This document shows, one piece after another, positions 1-34,854 of a stretch of DNA of 38,325 nucleotides; position 1 is the first letter of the stretch, and each line of letters begins with the position of its first letter. The notes beneath the pieces are model-generated. The model made no database searches. It was not told the DNA's origin and saw nothing but the letters and a program-made list of their open reading frames with translations. Source of the DNA: Candidatus Neomarinimicrobiota bacterium (GTDB taxonomy: Bacteria > Fidelibacterota > SORT01); the NCBI GenBank assembly GCA_022573815.1, contig JACZTG010000022.1, positions 1 through 38,325 of the forward strand, written 5' to 3'. A program made the position numbers and the translations under genes.

Positions 1-1489
<1,489 letters not shown>

Positions 1490-1565
1490 CTTCTTTTTAG
1501 TTGTTTCAATCGTATGTATCTACTCTTAAAACAGATTTCTCAATTAATTTTAATAGATTTAAGCG

Positions 1566-1685
1566 TTCCCGGTGGCTATTGCGGAGGGGCCACACCTCTT
1601 CCCATTCCGAACAGAGTAGTTAAGCCCTCCAGCGCTGATGGTACTGCCCCGGTAGCGGGGTGGAAGAGTAAGTCGTCGCCGGGTC
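1566..1685 (+). rRNA. rrf: 5S ribosomal RNA
   Basis: A segment of about 120 nt begins with tcccggtggc and ends with gtcgccggg, so its two ends pair as helix I. It contains the conserved 5S core ccattccgaacagag (near 1600-1616) and the loop E/helix IV region ending ggtagcggggtgg. It lies about 75 nt after the 23S end, the normal 16S-23S-5S order, and just before a terminator. No tRNA gene is visible in the 23S-5S spacer. The boundaries are good to a few bases. Confidence 0.95.
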
Positions 1686-1693
1686 TTTTTATC

Positions 1694-1726
1694 AAAAGGT
1701 CTCACTAATAGTGAGACCTTTTTTTC
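1694..1726 (+). terminator. Rho-independent terminator of the rRNA operon
   Basis: A perfect 13-bp stem, aaaaggtctcact (1694-1706) with agtgagacctttt (1710-1722), closes a 3-nt loop and runs straight into a T tract. It begins 9 nt after the 5S gene, as expected for the end of an rRNA operon. Confidence 0.95.
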
Positions 1727-1918
1727 TTGCTAACAATCTGTGATTCGAGTATATTCTCTCTTAAGGTGTAAGGATTGGAATATGCTTGAAAAGTGACGCA
1801 AAACACATTAAACAGGAACTTTTATTGATTATATTTAGTTCTCATTACGTATAGTATAGAAATAACGGGACTTTTAGAAAGTAATAAATTTAAATCATAT
1901 AAAATAGAAGGAGCGCTT
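1727..1918 (+). promoter_or_regulatory. Intergenic spacer, probable promoter region for the FN3/FecR/barrel/cyclase genes
   Basis: This is an AT-rich, gene-free spacer between the rRNA terminator and the first protein gene, so a new promoter must lie here. The best match I see is ttgatt at 1825-1830 with tatagt at 1850-1855, but the spacing of 19 is long and the match is weak. A good Shine-Dalgarno, agaaggag, sits at 1906-1913, six bases before the ATG at 1919. Confidence 0.4.
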
Positions 1919-3124
1919 ATGAGAATTGATACGAACTCTTTCAAAATATTCCTTATAGTCGCCATAACATTTTTATTTACCCAGAATTCCTTTGGGCAGG
2001 TAACTGTAAGAGTTGACGAACAAATCTCTCCGGATAATATTGTTATTTTTTATGTCGGTGATTTTGATTTAAAAGATGCGTCAAGTAATCCGCTGATTTT
2101 TCAATATAGAATTTCGGCTGATGCGTATCCTGTAGAAGTTGTTATGCGACTCCAAATGAATGCCACGGTGCCTTCATTGAGTTTGTCAAACGAGCAGATT
2201 CTATTCGCGTTAACAGATCCATTCACAATCACGGCGCCAATTACTATTTCCAATAGAGTTATAGACGAGAGTACCGAGGAAATTATTGACGAAGCTGGAA
2301 ATGTGGTAAATTTCAGTGTAGCTCGAACAGAGCAACTTGATGCGGGTACACAGGATGAACTTGTAGACGCGGTTACGCGAAGTGGTAAGCTTCCAGCCGG
2401 AGTTTACACTTTTGAGTTGCTTGTGACAAGTACGGATGCCAGCGATCCGTCAACTATATACAGTTTCGAGAATCCGAAGATAATAGAAATATCAAATCCG
2501 ACGACTCTTGACCTAATAGCGCCGGGTGGTTCTCTTTCGGAAGAATTAGAAATATTCACTCTGTTTCCGATTTTTCAATGGGAATCACAGGGATGCGAAT
2601 ATTTTATACGGCTAAGTGAATATGATCCTACGGTACACAGCTCTGTTGAAGAAGCATTAAATGATATTTCAAATTTACCTTTCCCGGATGACGGTGGCTA
2701 TTTTGGCGGTGATGATGGAGAAGGATTACAAAGCACTACATTGCAGTATCCCCTCACAGGAGCCAAAGAGCTGGAATATGGAAAGTATTATGCCTGGTCG
2801 GTGAGAAAAATATGTGAAACAACTGCCGGTCCTGAAATACGCAACAGTGATATTTATGTATTCCGTGTTGCGAATCTTGCGGGAGATGCCGATGCAGGTC
2901 CAGCAGCCGGGGGAGTGATTACAGATCCTGTTATATCAGCGCTACAAACTATTATCGGAGATGCATTTGACGGCCTGTTCTCAGGAGACGGTGAGTTAGC
3001 AGGATTTGTACAGGTATCCAATATTGTACTTAACGGAGAAGCTGCAGCGGCAGAAGCTGTAACGGAACTTGCCGAGAAAATGTTGAGCGGAGAAATAACC
3101 GCAGTTCAGATTGAAATTGAATAG
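1919..3124 (+). CDS. Exported FN3-like protein of unknown function
   Basis: This is a 401-residue protein that I cannot assign to a named family. Residues 1-26 form a signal peptide (hydrophobic run around 8-22, likely cut before Q27), so it is periplasmic or surface exposed. Residues about 200-318 look like a fibronectin-III/Ig-like beta sandwich: a PIFQW strand, then EYFIRLSEYD, and a YYAWSVRKI strand near 291-299. It carries only two cysteines in the mature part (C227 and C300). The last 80 residues are small and alanine/glycine rich, with no sorting signal I recognise. The start is supported by the Shine-Dalgarno agaaggag. It heads a four-gene same-strand set with a FecR protein, an outer-membrane barrel and a CHASE2 cyclase, suggesting a role as an envelope partner. 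The gene call is secure; the function is unknown. Confidence 0.85.
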   Translation: MRIDTNSFKIFLIVAITFLFTQNSFGQVTVRVDEQISPDNIVIFYVGDFDLKDASSNPLIFQYRISADAYPVEVVMRLQMNATVPSLSLSNEQILFALTDPFTITAPITISNRVIDESTEEIIDEAGNVVNFSVARTEQLDAGTQDELVDAVTRSGKLPAGVYTFELLVTSTDASDPSTIYSFENPKIIEISNPTTLDLIAPGGSLSEELEIFTLFPIFQWESQGCEYFIRLSEYDPTVHSSVEEALNDISNLPFPDDGGYFGGDDGEGLQSTTLQYPLTGAKELEYGKYYAWSVRKICETTAGPEIRNSDIYVFRVANLAGDADAGPAAGGVITDPVISALQTIIGDAFDGLFSGDGELAGFVQVSNIVLNGEAAAAEAVTELAEKMLSGEITAVQIEIE

Positions 3125-3146
3125 ACTGACCGTTAAGGAGAAAAAA

Positions 3147-3833
3147 ATGCATAATCGATATTTTAAATTTTTGATAATTTCAATTTTGTCGCTGTTTGTT
3201 CATAGTTCTCTATTCGCACAAGGTGACGGTGTAGCTGTAACTGCAAAAATTAAGGGTAAGACCGAGCATAAACCCGCCGGCGGAAGCTATCAGTCGGATT
3301 TAAAACGTGGAACACTCATAAGGGATCGAGCTTGGGTTAGAACTAAAGATGACGGTTACTTAGCGCTGATGTTCATCGATGACAAATCCCTGCTGAAGCT
3401 GAGAGAAAATTCCGAATTAGAGATTCGCGCCGATAGATCAGCAGGAGGGTTAAACAAATCAATACGGATGAGCTTTGGAAAAGTAAAGGCAGAGATTTCG
3501 CCGCAAAGGAGCGGTGAATTTATTATTTCCACGCCCACATCTGTTGCTTCCGTGAAAGGGACGATATTCTGGATTATTTCCACACCTGAAGGAGATCAAT
3601 TCATAGGAATTGAAGGAACAGTAGAAGTTACCAATAACGAAAGTGGCCAAACTGTTACAGTAACGGCAGGACAAACGGCCACATCGAATCCTGATGGAAG
3701 CATAGACGTGCAGCCCACACCTGAGGGTGGCGTACCTGAAGACCCGGGCGCGACAGAGGACGAAGGCAATCAATTACGTATTCGTCTGGAAAATGCTGAT
3801 GGTGAAACTAAAGAAATCATTATAAACTACTGA
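3147..3833 (+). CDS. Periplasmic stand-alone FecR-domain protein
   Basis: This 228-residue protein has a signal peptide (1-24, cut after LFA) and a FecR domain at about residues 55-180. The family signature is clear: a FIDDKSLLKL strand pair near 77-86, then TPTSVASVKGT (129-139) and GTVEVTN (157-163). It lacks the N-terminal cytoplasmic anti-sigma part and the membrane helix of TonB-type FecR, so it is a free periplasmic form. Such forms are often encoded beside CHASE2 cyclases and outer-membrane proteins. The C-terminal 45 residues are acidic and proline rich. The ATG at 3147 is chosen because taaggag lies 7 nt upstream and the signal peptide then starts at once. An in-frame ATG at 3111 would overlap the previous gene and add an unlikely leader. 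Confidence 0.85.
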   Translation: MHNRYFKFLIISILSLFVHSSLFAQGDGVAVTAKIKGKTEHKPAGGSYQSDLKRGTLIRDRAWVRTKDDGYLALMFIDDKSLLKLRENSELEIRADRSAGGLNKSIRMSFGKVKAEISPQRSGEFIISTPTSVASVKGTIFWIISTPEGDQFIGIEGTVEVTNNESGQTVTVTAGQTATSNPDGSIDVQPTPEGGVPEDPGATEDEGNQLRIRLENADGETKEIIINY

Positions 3834-3855
3834 TTCGTTAATAATAATTTTTAAA

Positions 3856-3902
3856 TGTATTCCGGGGTAGTTGTATAAAGTAAATGACTACCCCGGAATA
3901 CA
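3856..3902. repeat. Perfect 16-bp inverted repeat between the FecR and barrel genes
   Basis: The arm tgtattccggggtagt (3856-3871) and its exact complement at 3887-3902 enclose a 15-nt AT-rich loop. There is no T tract after either arm, so it is not an ordinary intrinsic terminator. It lies 22 nt after the FecR stop and 21 nt before the barrel start. It could be an mRNA-stabilising or attenuating hairpin, or a dyad protein-binding site. Confidence 0.85.
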
Positions 3903-3923
3903 AATGTTTGTGAGGGAGAAATA

Positions 3924-6746
3924 ATGTCTATTAATTCTTATTTTAAAGGAATTATCACTTTACTCGTATTTTCACCGGTGTTGGTACTTGCTCAGGGGAA
4001 AGTGCTTCATGCGCCTCCTGCGGGAGTGGAGGTTGGAAGAGATGTAGAAATAATTGCCTCTATCGAGAGTCAGGGGGAGGCTCTTTCCGATGTAAAATTA
4101 CTTTACAGAGAAAGAGGAACACGATCTTATAATGAGATCAGCATGATAGAATCTTCAGGTTTATATTCGGCAATAATACCCGGAAGTGATGTATCTGATG
4201 CCGGATTAGAATATCTGATAATTGCTGAATTGATAAGCGGTGGTCAGATAGCTTTTCCTGAAATTGACCCATACGAACAACCGATTTATTTAGTTACTTT
4301 GTTAGAAAAGACGAGTGAAGCAGTTGAAGCAGCCAGAGCTCAGGGAGCGGTTGAAGGCTCCAATATGGTTATATTGAGTCCTGATGTGAATTCACGCGTC
4401 AGGGCGGAAGAAACATTAATTGCAGTATCGCTATTCTATACAGAGAATCTTGATTTATCTACAGTTAAAGTATTTTTAAATGGGATAGATATTTCAGATA
4501 ATACCGTTATTTCTGAAGATCTAATCACATATGCGCCGGAAAAAATTAATGCCGGATTAAAAACTGTAATTATCGAAGCATCAGATCTGTTCGGGGAGGC
4601 GCTGAAACCGCTACAATGGGATTTTAGTGTAGTAAGTAATAAGGTAAGAACTGAAAGTAGATTTAAAATTAGTGGAAAAGGTTTCGTTGATACTCGAAGT
4701 GATAAGATCAAGGGACAGACAGATGATGTTTCAACATCCCGCGTTTCTTTCAGAGGAAACTACGATTTTTTGAAATTTAGAGGATTAGCGTATATCACTT
4801 CAAAAGAAGACAAATTTCTTCAACCGAAAAACAGATATATGTTTGCATTGAACACTAATTGGCTAACAATGAATTTCGGAGATATAAATCCGAATATCAC
4901 ACCTCTCACTATATCCGGAAAAAGAATTCGCGGAGTAGAGGGAAATCTATTACTCGGATTTTTTAATTTGCACACAGTTTACGGTGAATTGGAACGCGAG
5001 ATTCCCTCAGATATAAACCTCATAACAGAACCGTTGACAGTGGATGTAAATGGAGATGGAGAGTATTCGGCATCTGACGGAGATGAGTTTACAGATTTGA
5101 ACGGCGATGGTTCGCGAGACAAAGCGGGTGATATATTAAGAACGGGAACATTTCGCAGGACTCTGTTCGCAATAAGGCCGAGTTTCGGCCCGAGTAAGAA
5201 CCTTCAATGGGGTCTCACATTTGCGAGGGCGCGCGATGATTCGTTAATCGCTATGAACATAGAGGATAGAGCCGATCCTTCACTTTTGCCGGGTCGTCCT
5301 TCGAGGTTCGATTACACGAATAGCGACGGCGAGGAGATATTTATTGATATTGGAAAAACTCCTCAAGATAATATGATAATTGGAAGTGATTTGTTTCTCG
5401 GGTTTAATAATCGTCGAATCGTTCTTGAAGGTGAGGTGGCGCTGAGCTTACTTGCCAGAGACATAACAGATGGACCGTTCACAAAAGTCGGTCTTGATAC
5501 TTTATTGGACAACGACCAGGGATTTGGATTTATTGATGCGGAGCTATTTACCGATTCGAACGGAAACGGTGTTTACGATTTGGGCGAGCCGTTTACGGAT
5601 GATAATAATGATAATATATGGAACGACCGCAGGCGTAAAGATCCGCCCGACGGCCAAATCGGTGGAGTGGATATACCATTTGATCCCAAAGACCTTGAGA
5701 AATTATTCATCCTCAACCAATCGGTTATTCCGTTAGATCCTTCAGGGCTTAACTCCCTTTCCTATAACGCAGGGATAAAATTCAGTTATCTAAAACAATT
5801 TATTCGGGCGAGGTACCGCTTCGTGGGAGCTGAATTTAACTCACTGGCAAATCCGTTTATACGAAAAGATATTAAGGGATTTGATATATCCGACAGGATA
5901 CGGCTGCTTTCAAATAAGATGATTGTAAATGTCAGGTATGAAAGACTGGAAAACAATCTTTCCGATGATAAGTTAAACACAACGGTTACAACTTCCTTTG
6001 ACGGCGGGCTGTCAATTTATCCGGGAAAAGATCTGCCGCGTATCAGTCTGAACATCCGTGATTATGAACGCGATAACAGTATTGATACCACAGGATTTAA
6101 CAGTTTCGGGATATTCGAGGATAAGAGAGAACTTACTTCAACGATTACATCTACATTTTCGATCAGTTACGATGCCAGTGCTTTCGGGGTAAAGCATACT
6201 ATTAATTTGAACATCTCGAATTCTGAAAAAACTGACGATTTCGAAGATGACAGGTTAAGAGAAGTATTCATTGATTTAGATGGCGATGGTATATTTGATC
6301 CGGGTGAGGAAACCTTTACGGATTTAAATGGCGATAACGCTTATTCTTCATTCGTCTCATCAAATTTTACTTCAACGCAAATATCGGTTGTAGTGAATAC
6401 AAAATATGATCTTCCGCTTAAAACTCAATTACAGTTTCTCCAAAACAATAATGAGACTTCAGGTCAACCACAATTCACATATACGGTATTATCTGTTGGC
6501 GGAGAATACTTGATGCTCAATAAAAAACTGACGCTTAATGGAGCATTGAAACGTTCGAGTACCACAGGAGGTATCGAATTTAGGGAAAACCGGATTAGTG
6601 TGGGAGCACGATATAAAATCGGGAAAAAGCAGTCAATTTTAGCTAAAGCGGATTTTTCCTCACGAACCGAGAATGCCACTGAGACTACTCAGGAAAAGAA
6701 ATTTAATGATACAATATTCAGAGCGCGGTATTCTCTGTCTTTTTAA
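3924..6746 (+). CDS. Large outer-membrane beta-barrel protein with Ig-like N-terminus and calcium-loop-like repeats
   Basis: This is a 940-residue exported protein of no named family. It has a signal peptide (1-23, cut after VLA). Two Ig-like beta domains follow at about 30-125 and 145-235, and then a long region rich in alternating polar and apolar strands (245-940) ending in a typical barrel signal, RARYSLSF, with a terminal phenylalanine. Three insertions resemble paired EF-hand/dockerin calcium loops: residues 374-399 (DVNGDGEY and DLNGDGSRD), 543-568 (DSNGNGVYDLGE and DDNNDNIWND) and 783-806 (DLDGDGIFDPGE and DLNGDN). They probably sit in extracellular loops or plug regions. The start has a strong Shine-Dalgarno, gagggaga. 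Its position between FecR and CHASE2-cyclase genes suggests a surface sensor or channel. The barrel assignment is by pattern and is fairly firm. Confidence 0.85.
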   Translation: MSINSYFKGIITLLVFSPVLVLAQGKVLHAPPAGVEVGRDVEIIASIESQGEALSDVKLLYRERGTRSYNEISMIESSGLYSAIIPGSDVSDAGLEYLIIAELISGGQIAFPEIDPYEQPIYLVTLLEKTSEAVEAARAQGAVEGSNMVILSPDVNSRVRAEETLIAVSLFYTENLDLSTVKVFLNGIDISDNTVISEDLITYAPEKINAGLKTVIIEASDLFGEALKPLQWDFSVVSNKVRTESRFKISGKGFVDTRSDKIKGQTDDVSTSRVSFRGNYDFLKFRGLAYITSKEDKFLQPKNRYMFALNTNWLTMNFGDINPNITPLTISGKRIRGVEGNLLLGFFNLHTVYGELEREIPSDINLITEPLTVDVNGDGEYSASDGDEFTDLNGDGSRDKAGDILRTGTFRRTLFAIRPSFGPSKNLQWGLTFARARDDSLIAMNIEDRADPSLLPGRPSRFDYTNSDGEEIFIDIGKTPQDNMIIGSDLFLGFNNRRIVLEGEVALSLLARDITDGPFTKVGLDTLLDNDQGFGFIDAELFTDSNGNGVYDLGEPFTDDNNDNIWNDRRRKDPPDGQIGGVDIPFDPKDLEKLFILNQSVIPLDPSGLNSLSYNAGIKFSYLKQFIRARYRFVGAEFNSLANPFIRKDIKGFDISDRIRLLSNKMIVNVRYERLENNLSDDKLNTTVTTSFDGGLSIYPGKDLPRISLNIRDYERDNSIDTTGFNSFGIFEDKRELTSTITSTFSISYDASAFGVKHTINLNISNSEKTDDFEDDRLREVFIDLDGDGIFDPGEETFTDLNGDNAYSSFVSSNFTSTQISVVVNTKYDLPLKTQLQFLQNNNETSGQPQFTYTVLSVGGEYLMLNKKLTLNGALKRSSTTGGIEFRENRISVGARYKIGKKQSILAKADFSSRTENATETTQEKKFNDTIFRARYSLSF

Positions 6747-6766
6747 GTAAAGAAACTAATATAAAT

Positions 6767-6785
6767 CCTGCAATTTAAAAGCAGG
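6767..6785 (+). promoter_or_regulatory. Small hairpin overlapping the cyclase ribosome binding site
   Basis: cctgc (6767-6771) can pair with gcagg (6781-6785) around a 9-nt A/T loop. The gcagg arm is the only Shine-Dalgarno-like sequence upstream of the TTG start at 6794 (8-nt spacing). A 5-bp GC-rich stem could limit translation of the cyclase. The pairing is seen in the sequence; the regulatory role is inferred. Confidence 0.35.
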
Positions 6786-6793
6786 CAAAAGTT

Positions 6794-9127
6794 TTGATTC
6801 TACCCAAAATAGAGACTAAAAAAACAATTGTAGGCCTTGTTATCACATTAGCAGGGCTTTTGGTCGTTCTGGCACTTCGATTTACCGGTACCCTTGAATC
6901 AGCTGAATTAAGTTTGATAGATTTTCGATTTTTGACACGGGGGCCATTAAGCGGTATTACGGCAATAAATCCGATAGATAAAGACAGTATGGACGTAGTG
7001 ATAGTATCGCTGGATGATGAATCATGGCGGTTGATTCCCTATAAATGGCCTTATCCGAGAGAGATATGGGCAAGAACAGTGAGAAACCTGACAAGGGCAG
7101 GGGCTTCGGTATTAGTATTTGATATTGAATTTGACACCGAAGACAGAAAGTCCGCCTATGGCGATTCTCTGTTCGCAGAGGCGATAATGAATGCTCATAG
7201 CCAGGGGGTAGATGTGGTTCTGGCTGCAAAATATGTGGAAGAAAAAACCAGAATCCCCCCCGATTATATTAATTATCCGATTCAAAGATTACTTGATGCC
7301 GGCTCGGAAACCGGTCTGATCGGAGAAGTGAAAGACCCTGACGGCGTTACACGAAATGCATTATTATTTTCTATAATAACAAATGATTCAATCCCACATC
7401 TTTCACTGCCCTTAAAGGCAATTAAGAGTCATCTCAAGATTTCTGATGACACAAAATTAGTCCCAAAGGATACAGGTTGGGAATACGGAGGCCTGAATAT
7501 TCTGAGCCACAAAAGAAAAATTAATACATTTATGGTAAATTATTATGGGCCGCCTTCAAATGCCGGTCCCCCGCCGCCATTGGGACCATGGAGAACATTC
7601 AACAGGTATCCGCTGTCATCAGTACTTGACGACAACGAGTTTACACTGAAAGACCCGTTGGAAGACGTGGACTGGATGGATGTTTTTTTTGAAGATGGAT
7701 TTATGGCATCTATCGGTATGGGTCAGGAAAGTCCTTTTAAGGACAAGATAGTTATAATCGGCGTGGCGGTTGAAACCGTTTTGGATTTGAAGGAGACACC
7801 ATACTATAACTATTTCGGCATTCAGCAGCTTATGCCCGGTATGGAGACTCATGCCCATGCCATCCAAACAATTCTTGACGAGAATTACATACGGGAGATT
7901 GGAGTTGAGACAGAAATAATATGGCTTATAATTCTTAGTCTAATCGGATATGTTTTTCTTATGTGGCTCGGACCGGTTATAGGAGGAATCGTTCTGTTTT
8001 TACTTGGTGCATTATATGCAGATATAAGTATCGGAATGTTTTTCGGAGATTATCTTTGGATTATTAAAAAATCTCTTGATCTGGCGTTGACAGACGGATT
8101 TCTTGAAAGAATTGGAAATCCACAAATCATTGGTACCCCCGCAATGGGCTCCTCTGTAATAGTGCCTGTAGTCGCTCCGATATTGGGACTTTTGCTGACA
8201 TACGGTGGAAACATTTTGTTTCAGTTCATCATCGAACAGCGGGAGAAACGTAAAATTAATAATATGTTCTCAACTTATGTCAGTCCTAAAGTCCTTGAAC
8301 ATCTGCAAGACAATCCTGAAGCGTTCGGACTATCAGGTAAAAAGATGGCAGCTACAATGTTTTTTTCTGATGTAGCAAACTTTACTTCTATAAGCGAGAA
8401 TTTGTCAGCTGAAAATCTTGCGGTTGTACTTAACAGGTACCTTTCGCCTATGACAGAAATTTTGATGGAATACGATGGTTATGTGGACAAGTATGAAGGA
8501 GACGCAATTATGTGTGATTTCGGAGTGCCCATGCCGGACCCTGATCATGCCTGGAAAGCGTGTTTCGCCGCAATCGATTCGCAGAAGCGATTAGTTACCC
8601 TGCGGGAAGAGATAAAAGATGAATTCGATGTGGAAATATTCGTACGGATGGGAGTGAATTCCGGTGACGTGAGCGCTGGAAATATGGGTTCTGCGCAACG
8701 ATTTCAATACACGGTCATGGGGGACGCTGTAAATCAAGCATCACGGTTTGAAGGTGCCAACAAACAATATGATTCTGAAATTATGATAGGCGAATCAACT
8801 TATGCATTGGTGAAAGAATTAGTTGAAGTTAGACCTTTAGATAAATTAGTAGTTAAGGGAAAGGTAATTCCCATTGAAGTTTACGAGCTTCTTGCGAAAA
8901 AGGGTGAATTATCCGATGAAATGAGTAAAGTCAGTTTATTCTATACCGAAGGTATGGAGTTATATTGGAAAAAAGAGTGGCATTCGGCGCTTGAAAAATT
9001 CAAAGAAGCATTGAATATAAAGGAAAACGATGGCCCCTCCCTTACTTATGTGAAAAGATGTGAGGCATTCAAAGAATCCCCGCCGCCGGATGATTGGCAG
9101 GGCGAATTTGTAATGACTACAAAGTAA
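6794..9127 (+). CDS. CHASE2-domain class III adenylate cyclase
   Basis: This 777-residue membrane enzyme makes cAMP from ATP. In order it has an N-terminal membrane helix (about 11-29), a periplasmic CHASE2 sensor (about 35-370), transmembrane helices at about 374-415 and 453-480, a cytoplasmic linker, the cyclase homology domain (about 515-690), and a short TPR-like tail ending in the W-x-G element usual for this subfamily. Catalytic residues are all present: metal-binding D526 (FFSD) and D570 (EGD), adenine-selecting K566 and T640, and transition-state N647 and R651. K plus T at the purine sites points to ATP rather than GTP. It starts at TTG with a weak ribosome site partly in a hairpin. 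It follows FecR and barrel genes, whose products could signal to CHASE2. Confidence 0.95.
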   Translation: MILPKIETKKTIVGLVITLAGLLVVLALRFTGTLESAELSLIDFRFLTRGPLSGITAINPIDKDSMDVVIVSLDDESWRLIPYKWPYPREIWARTVRNLTRAGASVLVFDIEFDTEDRKSAYGDSLFAEAIMNAHSQGVDVVLAAKYVEEKTRIPPDYINYPIQRLLDAGSETGLIGEVKDPDGVTRNALLFSIITNDSIPHLSLPLKAIKSHLKISDDTKLVPKDTGWEYGGLNILSHKRKINTFMVNYYGPPSNAGPPPPLGPWRTFNRYPLSSVLDDNEFTLKDPLEDVDWMDVFFEDGFMASIGMGQESPFKDKIVIIGVAVETVLDLKETPYYNYFGIQQLMPGMETHAHAIQTILDENYIREIGVETEIIWLIILSLIGYVFLMWLGPVIGGIVLFLLGALYADISIGMFFGDYLWIIKKSLDLALTDGFLERIGNPQIIGTPAMGSSVIVPVVAPILGLLLTYGGNILFQFIIEQREKRKINNMFSTYVSPKVLEHLQDNPEAFGLSGKKMAATMFFSDVANFTSISENLSAENLAVVLNRYLSPMTEILMEYDGYVDKYEGDAIMCDFGVPMPDPDHAWKACFAAIDSQKRLVTLREEIKDEFDVEIFVRMGVNSGDVSAGNMGSAQRFQYTVMGDAVNQASRFEGANKQYDSEIMIGESTYALVKELVEVRPLDKLVVKGKVIPIEVYELLAKKGELSDEMSKVSLFYTEGMELYWKKEWHSALEKFKEALNIKENDGPSLTYVKRCEAFKESPPPDDWQGEFVMTTK

Positions 9128-9273: not shown

Positions 9274-10836
9274 ATGACACGCGGCAAAATACTGTGGGCT
9301 GATGATGAGATAGATCTTCTTCAACCTCACCTGATGTATCTCCAAGAAAGGGGCTATGACGTAACCGGTGTAACAAATGGTGACGATGCAATAGAACTTG
9401 TTGCAGAAGATAATTTTGATATCGTACTCCTTGATCAAATGATGAGTGGAAGAGACGGACTTTCCACTCTTGAAGAGATGAAAAAAATCTCTCCGAACTT
9501 ACCAATAATAATGATTACGAAGCATGAAGAAGAGAGTATTATGGAGGAAGCAATAGCCGGAAAAATCACGGACTATTTAACTAAGCCGGTGAATCCAAGC
9601 CAGATTTTAATGGCTTGCAAAAAGATTTTAGAAACATCCAAGATTTCTTCCGAACGGTTATCAAGAGATCATATAAACGAATTTCGGGTTATCAATGAAA
9701 TGTTAAATATGAATCCGACCAAGGACGAGTGGATTGATATTCATGTAAAAATATCTGAGATGGAGGTGGAGCTTGATTCTAACAGCGATTCGAGTTTAGG
9801 ATTTATGCTTGCTGACTTGAAAAAGGAATGTAATACTCTCTTTTTTAAGTTTGTGACTGAAAATTACTCCAAATGGGTAAATGATGACAGGACTGACAGT
9901 CCTACCCTATCAACGGATATTATATCGAGATACGCATATCCCCTACTGAAAGAAGGAAAGGAAGTAGTCTTTTTGCTAATCGACTGTATGAGACTTGACC
10001 AATGGTTTTCAATCGAAAAATATTTATACGAATATTTTAATATGTCAGTAGAATATTCATATTCTATACTCCCTACGGCAACTCCATTTTCAAGAAACTC
10101 GATTTTCAGCGGGCTATTTCCGAAAGAATTATCAGAAAAATATTCTGATATATGGAGAAAAGCGTGGGAGGATGAAGGGTCAATGAATAGGCATGAAGAT
10201 CTATATTTAGAGGAGCAGCTCAAAAGATTAAAAATCGATCTTAAGCCTGCATTGAAATATGCGAAAGTGCTAACGGCAATCGAGGGAAAAGCTATCGAGA
10301 AGCAGATTCCAACTTATGTGGGTGTGCCGTTCATTAGCCTTGTCGTAAATTTTGTTGATATTCTCACACATACGCGGTCCGAATCGGATATAATTAAAGA
10401 AATTGCTCCCGATGAATCAGGATTCAGATCTATCACCCGCTCATGGTTTGAAAATTCGTGGCTTTTTCAAGCGTTGAAGAAATTTTCTGAAATGGGAAAA
10501 ACAGTAATTTTAACAACAGACCACGGAAGCATTAAGGTAACTCGGGGTACTAAAGTGATCGGTGACCGAGAAACATCCACGGGGCTAAGATACAAATATG
10601 GCAGGAGTCTGAAAAGTGAGGAGAAGGAAACGTATTTCTTGAAGAACCCGCATGATTGGAAACTTCCATTAAAGGGTGTCAATACGAACTTCATTTTCTC
10701 GAAGAGTGATTACTTTTTCCTATATCCGACAAATTATAATAAATATTTAAATTATTACAAGGATACGTTTCAACATGGCGGGATATCGCTTGAGGAGATG
10801 ATATTACCCGTTGTGACCTTAGAACCGAAAAAATGA
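9274..10836 (+). CDS. porX: PorX-like response regulator with C-terminal PglZ (alkaline phosphatase superfamily) domain
   Basis: This 520-residue protein has a receiver domain (1-120) with acidic pocket D10/D11, phospho-acceptor D54 (VLLD), T82 and K104. A helical linker follows (about 125-215), then a PglZ-type domain (about 228-520) with metal-site motifs LLID (D237), PTATPF with nucleophile candidate T268 or T270, TTDHGS (D416, H417) and QHGG (H501). This is the layout of Bacteroidota PorX, which in Porphyromonas gingivalis controls type IX secretion and has a phosphodiesterase domain acting on cyclic oligonucleotides. All key residues look intact. It overlaps tsaE by 4 bp, a pairing also common in Bacteroidota. 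No cognate histidine kinase or type IX gene is in the window, so the role in this organism is inferred. Confidence 0.92.
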   Translation: MTRGKILWADDEIDLLQPHLMYLQERGYDVTGVTNGDDAIELVAEDNFDIVLLDQMMSGRDGLSTLEEMKKISPNLPIIMITKHEEESIMEEAIAGKITDYLTKPVNPSQILMACKKILETSKISSERLSRDHINEFRVINEMLNMNPTKDEWIDIHVKISEMEVELDSNSDSSLGFMLADLKKECNTLFFKFVTENYSKWVNDDRTDSPTLSTDIISRYAYPLLKEGKEVVFLLIDCMRLDQWFSIEKYLYEYFNMSVEYSYSILPTATPFSRNSIFSGLFPKELSEKYSDIWRKAWEDEGSMNRHEDLYLEEQLKRLKIDLKPALKYAKVLTAIEGKAIEKQIPTYVGVPFISLVVNFVDILTHTRSESDIIKEIAPDESGFRSITRSWFENSWLFQALKKFSEMGKTVILTTDHGSIKVTRGTKVIGDRETSTGLRYKYGRSLKSEEKETYFLKNPHDWKLPLKGVNTNFIFSKSDYFFLYPTNYNKYLNYYKDTFQHGGISLEEMILPVVTLEPKK

Positions 10837-11300
10837 CATTAGAATTGGATATAACCGTTAGCGAGAAAATAATTAATACTCACAGCGCTGAAGAAACTAT
10901 CAAAGAAGGCAAGATTTTAGGTTCGGGGCTGAGAAGCGGAGATGTGGTTGCTCTCATAGGTGATTTGGGAGCAGGTAAAACGGTGTTCACGCAAGGAATA
11001 TGTGCGGCATTGAGCAGTAACAATTCAGTAATAAGTCCTACTTTCACGATAGTAAACGAATACGATGGTTTGCATAAGATATTTCATTTTGATGCTTATC
11101 GGATTGAGAGTCAAAAGGATTTTATCTCCATCGGATTCGAGGATTATCTTTTGGAAGAAGGGATTTGTATTATTGAATGGGCGGACAAGATAAAGGAATT
11201 GCTTCCAGAACGAACTATATGGGTAAAATTTTATCATAATGAGATTGAGGAAAATCAGAGGGAACTGCGGATTAAATTTCCTGAGGAAGATATAAATTGA
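10833..11300 (+). CDS. tsaE: tRNA t6A biosynthesis ATPase TsaE
   Basis: This 155-residue P-loop ATPase works with TsaB and TsaD to make threonylcarbamoyl-adenosine at position 37 of ANN-decoding tRNAs. The Walker A motif GDLGAGKT lies near residues 44-51, followed by the family's SPTFTIVNEY (around 67-76) and HFDAYR (around 83-88) motifs, with a conserved IIEWADK near 113-119. Its length is normal. The start ATG overlaps the porX stop (ATGA), and its own stop overlaps the tsaB TTG start (TTGA), so the three are probably translationally coupled. Confidence 0.96.
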   Translation: MTLELDITVSEKIINTHSAEETIKEGKILGSGLRSGDVVALIGDLGAGKTVFTQGICAALSSNNSVISPTFTIVNEYDGLHKIFHFDAYRIESQKDFISIGFEDYLLEEGICIIEWADKIKELLPERTIWVKFYHNEIEENQRELRIKFPEEDIN

Positions 11301-11977
11301 AATTACTGGCTATTGATACTTCTTCCACCCAATGCAGCGTAGCCGTGATTAAGGATGGCTTGATATTGAATTCTTCTGCTGAAGATTCAAATCATAAACA
11401 TTCCACGGCTCTTGCAACAATGGCAAAAGGTGCCCTGATAGACAGTGGAATTGAGTTAGCTGATATTGACGGAATAGCGGTTGCCATCGGACCCGGTTCG
11501 CTCACGGGTTTACGGGTAGGTCTCGCTTTTGCAAAGGGTCTTTGTATGGCAGCATCATTAAAGATAGTGGCTGTGCCTACACTTGATGCGATGTCGCGCG
11601 CTGTTAAAGGAGAACACAGTTACGTAATGCCGATAATCAGGGCGAAAAAGGGATTCTTGCATACAGCGCTGTATGAAAATGGTAAATTGAAAGAGATTGA
11701 ACCTTATAAACTCACCGCTGACGAAAATCTTTCGACTGAGATTTTTAGCAAAACAATATTAGTTGGAGATGACGCTGTTATTGAAAGTGTCTCTCAATTC
11801 ACTAATGCGTATGAAATAATGAAGAGTTCAAGTTTACACCCTGTGGCGGAAGGAGTTGCACTGATTGGTGAAAAGATGTTAAAACGGGGGAAAAGCTCGG
11901 AGCTCTCTAAATTAGAACCGGATTATAAAATGGAATTTAAGGCAGTAAAATGGATACCCGAAGCGATATCAATATAA
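11297..11977 (+). CDS. tsaB: tRNA t6A biosynthesis protein TsaB
   Basis: This 226-residue ASKHA-fold protein is the TsaD partner in t6A synthesis. The N-terminus LLAIDTSSTQCSVA and the IGPGSLTGLRVG motif (around 68-79) are diagnostic. It uses a TTG start that overlaps the tsaE stop by 4 bp, and there is no better start nearby. Its 3' end overlaps rimI by 28 bp. TsaD itself is not in the window. Confidence 0.95.
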   Translation: MKLLAIDTSSTQCSVAVIKDGLILNSSAEDSNHKHSTALATMAKGALIDSGIELADIDGIAVAIGPGSLTGLRVGLAFAKGLCMAASLKIVAVPTLDAMSRAVKGEHSYVMPIIRAKKGFLHTALYENGKLKEIEPYKLTADENLSTEIFSKTILVGDDAVIESVSQFTNAYEIMKSSSLHPVAEGVALIGEKMLKRGKSSELSKLEPDYKMEFKAVKWIPEAISI

Positions 11978-22555: not shown

Positions 22556-23586
22556 TGACAGCAGCGCAAAATAAATCAAAAGATTCTATTATGCCTTATA
22601 ATGCCGCTGAAAAATCACTTGGCGTCGGCAATATAAAGCCATTATATCTTTTAGCGGGGAGAAAGCTCTGGGTAGATGCGTACCTTCGTGATAAATTTAT
22701 CAAAAAAGTAAGAGAAGTGTTCCTTGGAGATGATTCAGGGGTACAATCTCTTGAAATATTTCATGTAGGAGCGGATAAACCGGAAGTAATAATAAATGCT
22801 TTGGCGACATCGAGTTTATTCTCTGAAAAAAAACTGATTTTGATTCATGACATTCAGCGGTTGAGCGATGAAGGGATAAAGAAAATAGGCCAATATGCCG
22901 CATCGCCAATTCCCGAGAACTGCTTAATATTGATTTCTATGAATTTTGACGCTCGCAGGAAATGGTATAATTCACTTAAGAGTAAGGTGTTTGCCGTAAA
23001 GATCGAGACTCCTTTCGATAATCAAATACCTTCATGGATTTCTTCATTTGCCCGTCAAAGAGGGAAAAATATTTCAGCGGACGCATCCCGACTTTTTGGG
23101 GAATATACAGGAAGCAGTTTAATGCTGCTTGATATGGAGATGGAGAAACTCTCGCTATTTATCGGTGATAAAAAAGATATTGATGAAGATGATGTGAAGG
23201 ACGTCATCGGGTTTTCAAAACAATTATCTCCATTCGACCTTGAAAAGTATCTTTCTAAAAAAGATTTGCACTGGTCTCTAAAGGCATTAAACGATATGCT
23301 CGACAGAGGAGAAAACGCTCCGTCTATTTCGATTCAGATATTTAATTTTCTGATGACCGTGCTGATTGCGAAAGATGATGGAGCAGAACCATCTGCAAGA
23401 TGGTCGCCACGAGAAGAACTAAAGAAAGAAGCGGTTCGCAATTGGTCAAGAGAAGAACTTCTTAAGGGCATTGAATTGGTCAAGGAAGCCGATTTCAAAA
23501 CCAAACAAACCAATTTTTCAAATGGTGTGATTTTTTCTGAACTGGCAGTTCGATTATTAAGCGGAGAAGGTGTCTCAGTTGTCTGA
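22555..23586 (+). CDS. holA: DNA polymerase III subunit delta
   Basis: This 343-residue clamp-loader subunit opens the beta sliding clamp. The N-terminal IKPLYLLAGRKLWVDAYL corresponds to the family's degenerate P-loop region, and SSLFSEKKLILIHD (around 84-97) is the typical second motif. The C-terminal part is the helical collar domain. The start overlaps the preceding stop by one base, with gagg just upstream; an ATG at 22591 is an alternative. The 3' end overlaps the sigma factor gene. Confidence 0.92.
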   Translation: MTAAQNKSKDSIMPYNAAEKSLGVGNIKPLYLLAGRKLWVDAYLRDKFIKKVREVFLGDDSGVQSLEIFHVGADKPEVIINALATSSLFSEKKLILIHDIQRLSDEGIKKIGQYAASPIPENCLILISMNFDARRKWYNSLKSKVFAVKIETPFDNQIPSWISSFARQRGKNISADASRLFGEYTGSSLMLLDMEMEKLSLFIGDKKDIDEDDVKDVIGFSKQLSPFDLEKYLSKKDLHWSLKALNDMLDRGENAPSISIQIFNFLMTVLIAKDDGAEPSARWSPREELKKEAVRNWSREELLKGIELVKEADFKTKQTNFSNGVIFSELAVRLLSGEGVSVV

Positions 23587-24154
23587 AGGGAAAAAATATA
23601 CAGATGAAGACCTGATAGCGAGGTTTCAGAATGGGGATGAATACGCCTTTGACGAGATAGTCAACAGATATAAAGACCGATTATTAAACTTTGTATTCAG
23701 ATTTATCGGACAAATAGACGAGTCGGAAGATATTGTGCAGGATACTTTTTTAAAAGTGTATAAGAATAAGAATTCTTATGAGAATATAGCCCGATTTTCC
23801 ACATGGATATATACGATAGCGGGCAATCTTGCAAAGACAGAACTTCGGAAAAGGAAGAGACGGCGGATTTTTTCTATCTCGAAAATGGGCATTGACGACA
23901 AGGAATTTGAACTTCCGTCAACGGCCAGAACTCCTGAAGAAAATACTGAAAGTACATTTAACGAAAAATTAATTCAAAATGCAATTCAGAAACTGCCGGA
24001 TAAATTTCGAACCGTGATAATTCTTCGAGATATTCAGGAACTTTCTTACGATGAGATTAGTAAGATAATAGGAGTACCGCTCGGAACAATAAAGTCCCGT
24101 GTGAACAGAGCCAGATTGAAACTCAGGGGACTCCTGAAAGATTTTAAGGATTAA
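23579..24154 (+). CDS. ECF (sigma-E-type) RNA polymerase sigma factor
   Basis: This sigma factor of about 191 residues has regions 2 and 4 only. Region 2 contains FDEIVNRYKDRLLNF, EDIVQDTFLKVY and the promoter-melting FSTWIYTIAGN. Region 4 contains LPDKFRTVIILRDI and the helix-turn-helix LSYDEISKIIGVPLGTIKSR. I prefer the TTG at 23579 because ggagaagg lies 8 nt upstream; a GTG at 23570 would overlap that ribosome site. Both starts lie inside the end of holA. The next gene is its likely anti-sigma factor. Confidence 0.95.
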   Translation: MSEGKKYTDEDLIARFQNGDEYAFDEIVNRYKDRLLNFVFRFIGQIDESEDIVQDTFLKVYKNKNSYENIARFSTWIYTIAGNLAKTELRKRKRRRIFSISKMGIDDKEFELPSTARTPEENTESTFNEKLIQNAIQKLPDKFRTVIILRDIQELSYDEISKIIGVPLGTIKSRVNRARLKLRGLLKDFKD

Positions 24155-33156: not shown

Positions 33157-33201
33157 TAAGGGCTTTTGGATATTAAAAAAACAGCGGTGGAGCAAACAAT
33201 A

Positions 33202-34854
33202 ATGTCTGATAAGAAGAAAGTAATTCTCATTGGTCTTGATGGAGGTACTTTCGATATAATGATGCCGTATATACAGGATGGCAGCATGCCGACACTGAAA
33301 TCCTTGATTGACGAGGGTGTCCATGGAATCCTTAAGAGCACTTTTCCTCCACTTACTTGTCCGGCATGGTTTAGTTTCTCCACAGGCAAGAATCCGGGCA
33401 AACTCGGAATGTTTAATTTCTACAGATTGGAGAAAAGCAGCTACGATATTAGGCGATTCGACAATCGAGATGTTGAGAACGAAAACGAATTATGGGACAT
33501 ACTGAACTCTTACGGATACACTACCGGCATATTCAATAATCCTGTGGCGTTTCCGCCGAAATCGGTTGACGGCTTTATGGTATCGGGATTTCTTGCTCCA
33601 TCCACACATTCAAATTTTACTCATCCGAAAAATCTTAAAGATGACTTGGACAGGGTAACGGGTGGTTATGAAATTGACGCAGACCAGGGAGACAGGTATC
33701 GCGTGGAGGACGTCGTCGAAAATTGTCATCGCCTGCTGTATAAACGTACCAAAGCGATAAAATATTTGCTCGATGAAAAGATGCAGGACTTTATGATGTT
33801 TGTTTATACAGGGTCAGACAGGATGTCTCACCAATTAATAAATAAGATGTATTCGGACGATGAAAATGAGTCCCGATGGGCAAAAGAAGAGCTGAAAAAG
33901 TATTTTTCAGCTCTTGATGGGGAAATAGGCGAAGTTTTAGATTCCGTAAAGAATGAGGATTACACGCTTTATCTGATGTCAGATCATGGATTTCATCGTC
34001 GGGATAAAGGATTCTACCTGAATCAGTGGCTGATTAATGAGGGGTATCTGGTTTTAAAGAATCCGAACTCGATTCTCGGGAAAATCGGTATCACTCAAAA
34101 GGGTATTGCCTCCGTCCTTGATAAATTCGGTATGAAGAATTTTGTGAGGGGTATAGTGCCGAAATTTCTCGAAAAACGGGTACCTGTCGGAGTCATAGAA
34201 GGTAGTGGTAAAGCGATAATGGACCTTATTCAAACAGGAGGTATCCACTGGCAAAAGACGAAGGCGATTGCTATTCCGGGCGGTATTTACATTAACACCG
34301 TTGACAGACCGGAAGGGATTGTCTCACCGGAAGATTATGATGCTTTAAGGAAAGAAATAGCGGATAAGCTACGGAATATTTCTGATCCGCGTGACGGCTC
34401 CGCTCTTGAAGTGGAAATTCTCTTACGTGAAGATATTTATTCCGGCGAATATGTGTCAAACGCTCCTGACATCCAATTTATCTTAGGAAACTACGAATGG
34501 GGCGAAATACGTAATATCCCCCCTGATGGAAGACTTTTCGATCCTCTTGAAACCGCCCACCATGACGATAAGGGTATCTTTATCGCTCATGGGAACGGGA
34601 TTCGCAAAGGAATTAAAATTGATAATGCAAATATAACTGATTTAGCTCCAACAATATTGTCATCGTTCGGAATCAAAGCGCCTGATGATATGGATGGAAA
34701 AATTTTGCAGGATATTTTTGAAACGCCTCCTGTTTTCTCCAACGATGAGCGAAATGTGTCAGCGCAAGATCTTCGAAAGGAATCGAAAGGATATACTCCT
34801 GAGGAAGAAAAAGCGATTGAAGAGAGGTTGAGAGGTTTAGGCTATGTCGATTAA
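33202..34854 (+). CDS. Alkaline-phosphatase-superfamily phosphodiesterase/phosphotransferase in glycan cluster
   Basis: This 550-residue protein of the nucleotide pyrophosphatase/phosphodiesterase group has VILIGLDGGTFD (metal ligand D13), then PPLTCPAW with T52 as likely nucleophile, FSTGKNPGKLGMFNF, and a second metal site, LMSDHGFHRR. A third histidine cluster (AHHDDKG) lies near the C-terminus. No signal peptide is visible, so it probably acts in the cytoplasm, unlike most secreted relatives. Members often sit in surface-polysaccharide clusters, but their substrate is not established. The ATG at 33202 has ggag 9 nt upstream; an upstream TTG at 33166 would add 12 unconserved-looking residues. 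Confidence 0.88.
   Translation: MSDKKKVILIGLDGGTFDIMMPYIQDGSMPTLKSLIDEGVHGILKSTFPPLTCPAWFSFSTGKNPGKLGMFNFYRLEKSSYDIRRFDNRDVENENELWDILNSYGYTTGIFNNPVAFPPKSVDGFMVSGFLAPSTHSNFTHPKNLKDDLDRVTGGYEIDADQGDRYRVEDVVENCHRLLYKRTKAIKYLLDEKMQDFMMFVYTGSDRMSHQLINKMYSDDENESRWAKEELKKYFSALDGEIGEVLDSVKNEDYTLYLMSDHGFHRRDKGFYLNQWLINEGYLVLKNPNSILGKIGITQKGIASVLDKFGMKNFVRGIVPKFLEKRVPVGVIEGSGKAIMDLIQTGGIHWQKTKAIAIPGGIYINTVDRPEGIVSPEDYDALRKEIADKLRNISDPRDGSALEVEILLREDIYSGEYVSNAPDIQFILGNYEWGEIRNIPPDGRLFDPLETAHHDDKGIFIAHGNGIRKGIKIDNANITDLAPTILSSFGIKAPDDMDGKILQDIFETPPVFSNDERNVSAQDLRKESKGYTPEEEKAIEERLRGLGYVD

Follow-up and report, generated by a model that had tools for sequence, protein, structure and literature searches.

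Do four neighboring genes at the start of a contig from Candidatus Neomarinimicrobiota bacterium form a single route by which events at the outer membrane reach an enzyme in the cytoplasm? The stretch analyzed, called the window below, comprises 38,325 nucleotides (GenBank assembly GCA_022573815.1, JACZTG010000022.1) and corresponds to contig C22 in a genome of 2.39 Mb, 96% complete. A first-pass annotation, made from the nucleotide sequence alone, had claimed four genes at 1919-9127, encoding a secreted fibronectin type III (FN3)-like protein, a FecR-domain protein, an outer-membrane barrel, and a CHASE2 adenylate cyclase. These genes are real, with all four open reading frames (ORFs) open at those places on one strand. 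We find that their order is kept across several phyla, and we conclude that they probably constitute a trans-envelope receptor for a cyclase that makes cyclic AMP (cAMP).

Gene order across phyla

The first-pass annotation had staked its proposal on the four genes being neighbors in related genomes, and neighbors they are, across several phyla. Among 100 relatives, the barrel was matched in 76 and the FN3-like protein in 64. We read 53 Marinimicrobia loci in full for gene order; 43 carry FN3-FecR-barrel-cyclase on one strand, with 31 of these continuing into porX, and 3 more begin at FecR. Because the median gaps in these loci, from the FN3 gene to the cyclase, are only -0.5, 27, and 16.5 bp, the four genes look like an operon. 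The barrel and cyclase genes are 47 bp apart in the window.

A scan of named genomes with a 19-row barrel alignment recovered the same cluster in KSB1 (L158), Cloacimonadota (L180, L184, and L186), and a Spirochaetes-titled record (L185), as well as a cluster lacking the cyclase in Calditrichaeota (L164). At an E value of ≤1e-10, a threshold at which the counts include some weak or immunoglobulin (Ig)-domain-only matches, the barrel profile hit 9 of 9 Calditrichota, 76 of 82 KSB1, and 90 of 118 Cloacimonadota genomes, together with 65 of 198 genomes of a Bacteroidota-type phylum (G111) that is placed only through a Flavobacteriaceae-titled entry. Below 1e-40, matches remained in ∼52 KSB1, ∼88 Cloacimonadota, and ∼55 G111-phylum genomes. 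Of 40 loci from these matches that were read for order, the full four-gene arrangement was present in 16 of 20 from the G111 phylum, 7 of 8 from KSB1, and 6 of 6 from Cloacimonadota, and one further locus in each of the first two groups was short of the FN3 call only. Calditrichota mostly keep just the barrel and cyclase genes, which stay side by side even in loci that lack FecR and FN3. An order that recurs in several phyla is far from what chance would produce, and a random neighborhood can be ruled out.

Several loci vary around this arrangement. In one Calditrichota locus, a secreted TPR-CHAT (caspase-like) protein lies directly upstream of the barrel-cyclase pair and replaces FN3 and FecR (L223:2957-5419), and another (L225) holds a similar 818-aa gene. 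A putative association of CHAT, DUF928, CHASE2, and FecR in cyanobacteria, on which our literature search returned nothing, agrees with this TPR-CHAT protein and with the DUF928 match reported below. L202 has, ahead of its FN3 gene, a gene (908-3361) for an 817-aa product that combines a carboxypeptidase-regulatory domain with DUF5686, and most of L201-L208 have a gene of like size at the equivalent position. A Flammeovirgaceae-titled record (MED636, L181) shows the complete Marinimicrobia-type order through porX-tsaE-tsaB, and its title is probably wrong; a Flavobacteriaceae-titled one (L182) holds only divergent FN3 and barrel genes.

The four proteins and their described counterparts

The cyclase call stands on Pfam matches to CHASE2 (3.6e-40) and Guanylate_cyc (7.3e-24). 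The protein ends in a weak TPR match and a conserved tail (P..W.G...MTTK), and a whole-genome search for CHASE2 gave one match, the module cyclase. Six residues, to which we assign roles from established class III knowledge, are kept in 126 to 128 of 129 cyclase homologues from several phyla: D526 and D570 (metal binding), K566 and D644 (adenine selecting), and N647 and R651 (transition state). Based on this conservation, the enzyme is predicted to be catalytically complete and should make cAMP.

We folded the barrel with AlphaFold2 from a 46-sequence alignment. The model (predicted local distance difference test [pLDDT] score, 79) supports the barrel call, with ∼26 long strands across residues 247-940, and adds two N-terminal Ig-like beta-sandwich domains (residues ∼25-125 and 150-238). 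The family of 46 members belongs to no Pfam family; among Foldseek matches to the model, the Mtr complex barrel ranks first (6r2q_B; TM-score by target, 0.50), and further ones include TonB-dependent receptors and ushers. The calcium-loop-like inserts described in the first-pass annotation are present as DxDxDG loops around residues 366-402, 529-578, and 781-807, mostly at a pLDDT of <50 and with acidic residues in excess. They occur mainly in the window's own family and sporadically elsewhere but are no part of a conserved core, as 31 of 46 barrels carry no such motif, and calcium loops were rejected as a defining feature of the module on that count.

For the FN3-like protein of the window, Pfam gave no match above its cut-off. 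Its model is a multi-domain beta-sandwich (pLDDT, 83), and in several phyla its homologues are encoded ahead of FecR and the barrel. Sequence searches of the PDB with the FN3 and barrel families returned only weak Ig-type matches. The same domain recurs in long homologues, one of which scores against fn3 (3.9e-13) and DUF928 (9.3e-9). Two giant members, of 1,584 and 1,555 aa, stand in triads without a cyclase (L069:2338-10898 and L076:3988-12469, respectively) and carry repeated fn3/DUF928/Ig_Rha78A-type domains. Because giant homologues repeat a domain that scores as fn3 and DUF928, "FN3-like," the name chosen in the first-pass annotation, seems a fair one for the 401-aa protein, judging from its model and relatives.

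The FecR call was likewise borne out by Pfam. An ATG at 3147, preceded by AAGGAG, is better placed as the start than a TTG at 3111, and the product has an N-terminal signal peptide and is a free secreted protein.

The closest described counterpart is in the plant symbiont Sinorhizobium meliloti, where the outer-membrane barrel NsrA is required for signaling through CyaK or CyaD1/CyaD2, and where cAMP production by the adjacently encoded CHASE2 cyclase CyaK depends on NsrA (PMC7529298, PMC13001267). We retrieved that locus and found NsrA to be a single 1,190-aa FecR-TPR-barrel chain encoded directly before cyaK. The window shares with it a periplasmic FecR domain, an outer-membrane barrel, and a class III CHASE2 cyclase immediately downstream, and the FecR domains are homologous (profile comparison with hhalign: probability, 97.5%; E value, 8.7e-12). 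Unlike in NsrA, FecR and the barrel are separate genes in the window, Ig-like domains take the place of TPR, and an FN3/DUF928-like protein is added. Nor do the barrels have detectable homology: their hhalign probability was 0.1, no better than that of a reversed control, so that membership in one barrel family is unsupported. Because FecR is homologous and the barrel unrelated, the module, by its sequence, is classed with CHASE2/FecR/outer-membrane-barrel cAMP signaling of the NsrA-CyaK kind and not with the NsrA family proper. The first-pass annotation had known of no described system with this barrel and this FN3 protein. The barrel family and the FN3/DUF928-like partner are indeed new, but NsrA-CyaK had already been described.

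Other systems share parts of the arrangement. CHASE2 cyclases of Campylobacterota also cluster with an FecR-domain outer-membrane protein; a cAMP phosphodiesterase and a TPR protein belong to that cluster, whereas the window adjoins a PglZ-type PorX (PMC9239204). No dedicated cAMP phosphodiesterase was found among the conserved genes of the module. The MtxA locus of magnetotactic bacteria resembles the window in placing a secreted FN3-like Ig-domain protein beside a CHASE2 adenylate cyclase, but MtxA has TPR repeats, and the accessible part of its report describes no FecR-barrel pair at that locus (PMC4439547). One member of our FN3 family gave a weak MtxA_IG-like match (E value, 0.13). As in FecA-FecR-FecI, an FecR-type periplasmic domain accompanies an outer-membrane barrel; unlike in that system, the window FecR carries a signal peptide but lacks an anti-sigma part, and the conserved cluster has no sigma factor gene. 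Pfam searches of the barrel and FecR proteins revealed no TonB-dependent receptor, plug, or anti-sigma domains, and an extracytoplasmic function sigma factor gene lies far from the module (23570-24154).

Receptor, surface device, or input to type IX secretion

We propose that the barrel would span the outer membrane, exposing its loops to the exterior and holding its two Ig-like domains on the periplasmic side, where it would work with free FecR and the FN3/DUF928-like protein, both predicted to be secreted to the periplasm. A change in the barrel, whether from ligand binding or envelope disturbance, would be passed through FecR and the FN3-like protein to the periplasmic CHASE2 domain, and CHASE2, anchored in the inner membrane, would switch the cytoplasmic cyclase. 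The cAMP output would act on Crp-type receptors, candidates for which are among nine cyclic nucleoside monophosphate-binding matches in the genome. A similar trans-envelope path had been drawn in the first-pass annotation; the order kept across phyla, the intact cyclase residues, and the NsrA-CyaK analogue now favor it, whereas the path itself, with its protein-protein contacts, its direction, and its outside signal, is still one that we infer. It is the best available reading of the four genes.

Some observations weigh against such a receptor. The genome encodes other class III cyclases (six matches in all). The NsrA barrel has no detectable sequence relation to that of the window, so NsrA supports the logic of the proposal and not a common descent. 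FN3-FecR-barrel triads without a cyclase occur in 7 of the 53 Marinimicrobia loci and in at least 16 of 73 named loci, some of which are cut by contig ends. Moreover, some genomes hold a triad in addition to a full module, which may mean that the triad has its own job. Since cyclase-less triads occur, the receptor part can exist alone; by analogy with NsrA, which feeds several cyclases, it may feed one encoded elsewhere, or it may do another job.

We consider it unlikely, though worth weighing, that the triad is a transport, secretion, or surface-assembly device in its own right, with the cyclase reporting on the state of that device or merely regulating it. Consistent with this, triads without any cyclase have varied flanks, and two such variants encode the giant FN3/Ig-repeat proteins of 1,555 to 1,584 aa. 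The tsa-corrected distance correlations are also higher for FecR-barrel (0.75) and FN3-barrel (0.70) than for barrel-cyclase (0.45), descriptive values in which co-function and vertical descent are not separable. However, no transporter partner or conserved cargo gene lies beside the triads, the barrel stays with the cyclase where FecR and FN3 are missing, and the analogous NsrA acts as a receptor (PMC7529298). Beside the cyclase-less triads, whose flanks vary, we found no conserved alternative output gene. In two loci (L149:5964-9630 and L156), genes for a stand-alone receiver, a metallo-beta-lactamase-fold protein, and a GAF-HD protein come after the triad; this block is a possible alternative signaling output but not a general one.

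The first-pass annotation was right about the four genes and their order but not about the extent of the cluster. Its module ended at the cyclase, leaving out porX-tsaE-tsaB downstream and so missing PorX, which is encoded next after the cyclase and may be an output. PorX is a 677-bit match to the NCBIfam model for the response regulator of the type IX secretion system (T9SS), and 34 of the 53 Marinimicrobia loci have porX after the cyclase, directly downstream in most of those that reach that far. The porX gene also lies within ∼9 kb of the module in three KSB1 loci (L151, L230, and L232) and one Cloacimonadota locus (L184). Like the PorX of the PorXY system, its product is a full-length orthologue with receiver and phosphodiesterase residues intact: receiver D54 and the metal/catalytic residues D237, T270, D362, H366, D416, H417, and H501 are present in 73 of 73 sequences. 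The T9SS translocon SprA was found in 98 of the 100 relatives. The PorX of Porphyromonas gingivalis partners with PorY, whose gene is at another locus (PMC10951265), and it hydrolyzes cyclic and linear oligoadenylates (PMC11320123).

These features are consistent with the module also being the sensory input of PorX, such that cAMP or a derived nucleotide would be sensed or destroyed by the PorX phosphodiesterase and type IX secretion thereby tuned. We regard this idea, which is compatible with the trans-envelope receptor, as doubtful. Some genomes encode PorX but lack the module, and several others contain the two at separate places, so the link between the two is not obligatory. The gap between the cyclase and porX, 146 bp in the window (median, 141 bp in the Marinimicrobia loci), may hold a separate promoter for porX. 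The literature searched contained no report of cAMP hydrolysis by PorX and none of a cyclase module beside PorX. In addition, the P. gingivalis work indicates that the zinc-induced conformation of PorX matters more for the T9SS than its catalytic activity (PMC11320123).

A role for the barrel as an electron-conduit sheath of the MtrB type or as a large porin, with the cyclase beside it incidentally, is very improbable: the top Foldseek match and the ∼26 modeled strands point that way, but the fold match is weak, none of the five proteins has the CXXCH haem motif expected of a multihaem cytochrome encoded with the barrel, the barrel profile found no MtrB among PDB sequences, and the conserved order is with FecR and CHASE2 instead.

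Locus setting and significance

The contig start falls inside an rRNA operon, and the module follows directly (Table 1). The rRNA operon is directly upstream of the module in all nine Marinimicrobia loci tested (L064, L077, L079, L087, L097, L099, L109, L110, and L113), which is probably why many metagenome contigs start just ahead of the FN3 gene. In a consensus scan, the hairpin directly after the 5S gene had the longest stem, in a region where the count of such sites was not above that of shuffled sequences.

Table 1. Features at the start of the window, with the evidence for each
Feature	Positions	Strand	Evidence or remark
End of rRNA operon (23S, 1-1490; 5S, 1568-1684)	1-1684	+	Rfam; directly upstream of module
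Terminator-like hairpin (13 pairs plus T-run) between rRNA operon and module	1694-1722	+	Consensus scan
Secreted FN3/DUF928-like protein of 401 aa with signal peptide; beta-sandwich fold; in no Pfam family	1919-3124	+	ORF, structure model, homologues
Free periplasmic FecR-domain protein, 228 aa, signal peptide	3147-3833	+	Pfam FecR, 4.3e-11
Outer-membrane beta-barrel, 940 aa, signal peptide	3924-6746	+	AlphaFold2 model; 46-member family
Three Asp-rich low-confidence loops with DxDxDG-type repeats, inside barrel gene	5019-6344	+	pLDDT, motif scan
CHASE2/class III adenylate cyclase, 777 aa	6794-9127	+	Pfam
CHASE2 periplasmic sensor domain	6857-7951	+	PF05226
PorX, receiver plus PglZ/alkaline-phosphatase-type phosphodiesterase	9274-10836	+	NCBIfam NF052313
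tsaE and tsaB, after porX in conserved downstream block	10833-11977	+	Same order in most Marinimicrobia loci

The window also encodes a second alkaline-phosphatase-superfamily protein amid glycosyltransferase genes (33166-34854; Type I phosphodiesterase, 1e-36). At another locus, a gene upstream of a cyclase-less triad (L095:6088-8805) encodes a protein with a type IX sorting tail (Por_Secre_tail, 1.3e-4; CHU_C, 1.3e-5).

The module appears to be a widespread and previously undescribed version of CHASE2/FecR/outer-membrane-barrel cAMP signaling. FecR, CHASE2 cyclases, and outer-membrane barrels recur together in distant bacteria, and NsrA-CyaK is the only genetically studied case that we found in the literature searched. 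The module applies this logic with another barrel family and another periplasmic partner, in an order fixed in at least four phyla. Most of the genomes sampled from Calditrichota, KSB1, Cloacimonadota, and Marinimicrobia have the module. These are mostly uncultured groups about which very little has been learned by experiment, and the module offers a delimited set of genes with which to test how events at the outer membrane reach CHASE2. In Marinimicrobia, the position of the cyclase directly before PorX makes a link between cAMP and the T9SS testable. Very tentatively, the module could be an ancestral trans-envelope receptor cassette across the Fibrobacteres-Chlorobi-Bacteroidetes superphylum that controls cAMP and, via the adjacent PorX, type IX secretion. 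If so, cyclic-nucleotide signaling would be an unrecognized input to the T9SS outside the classical Bacteroidetes.

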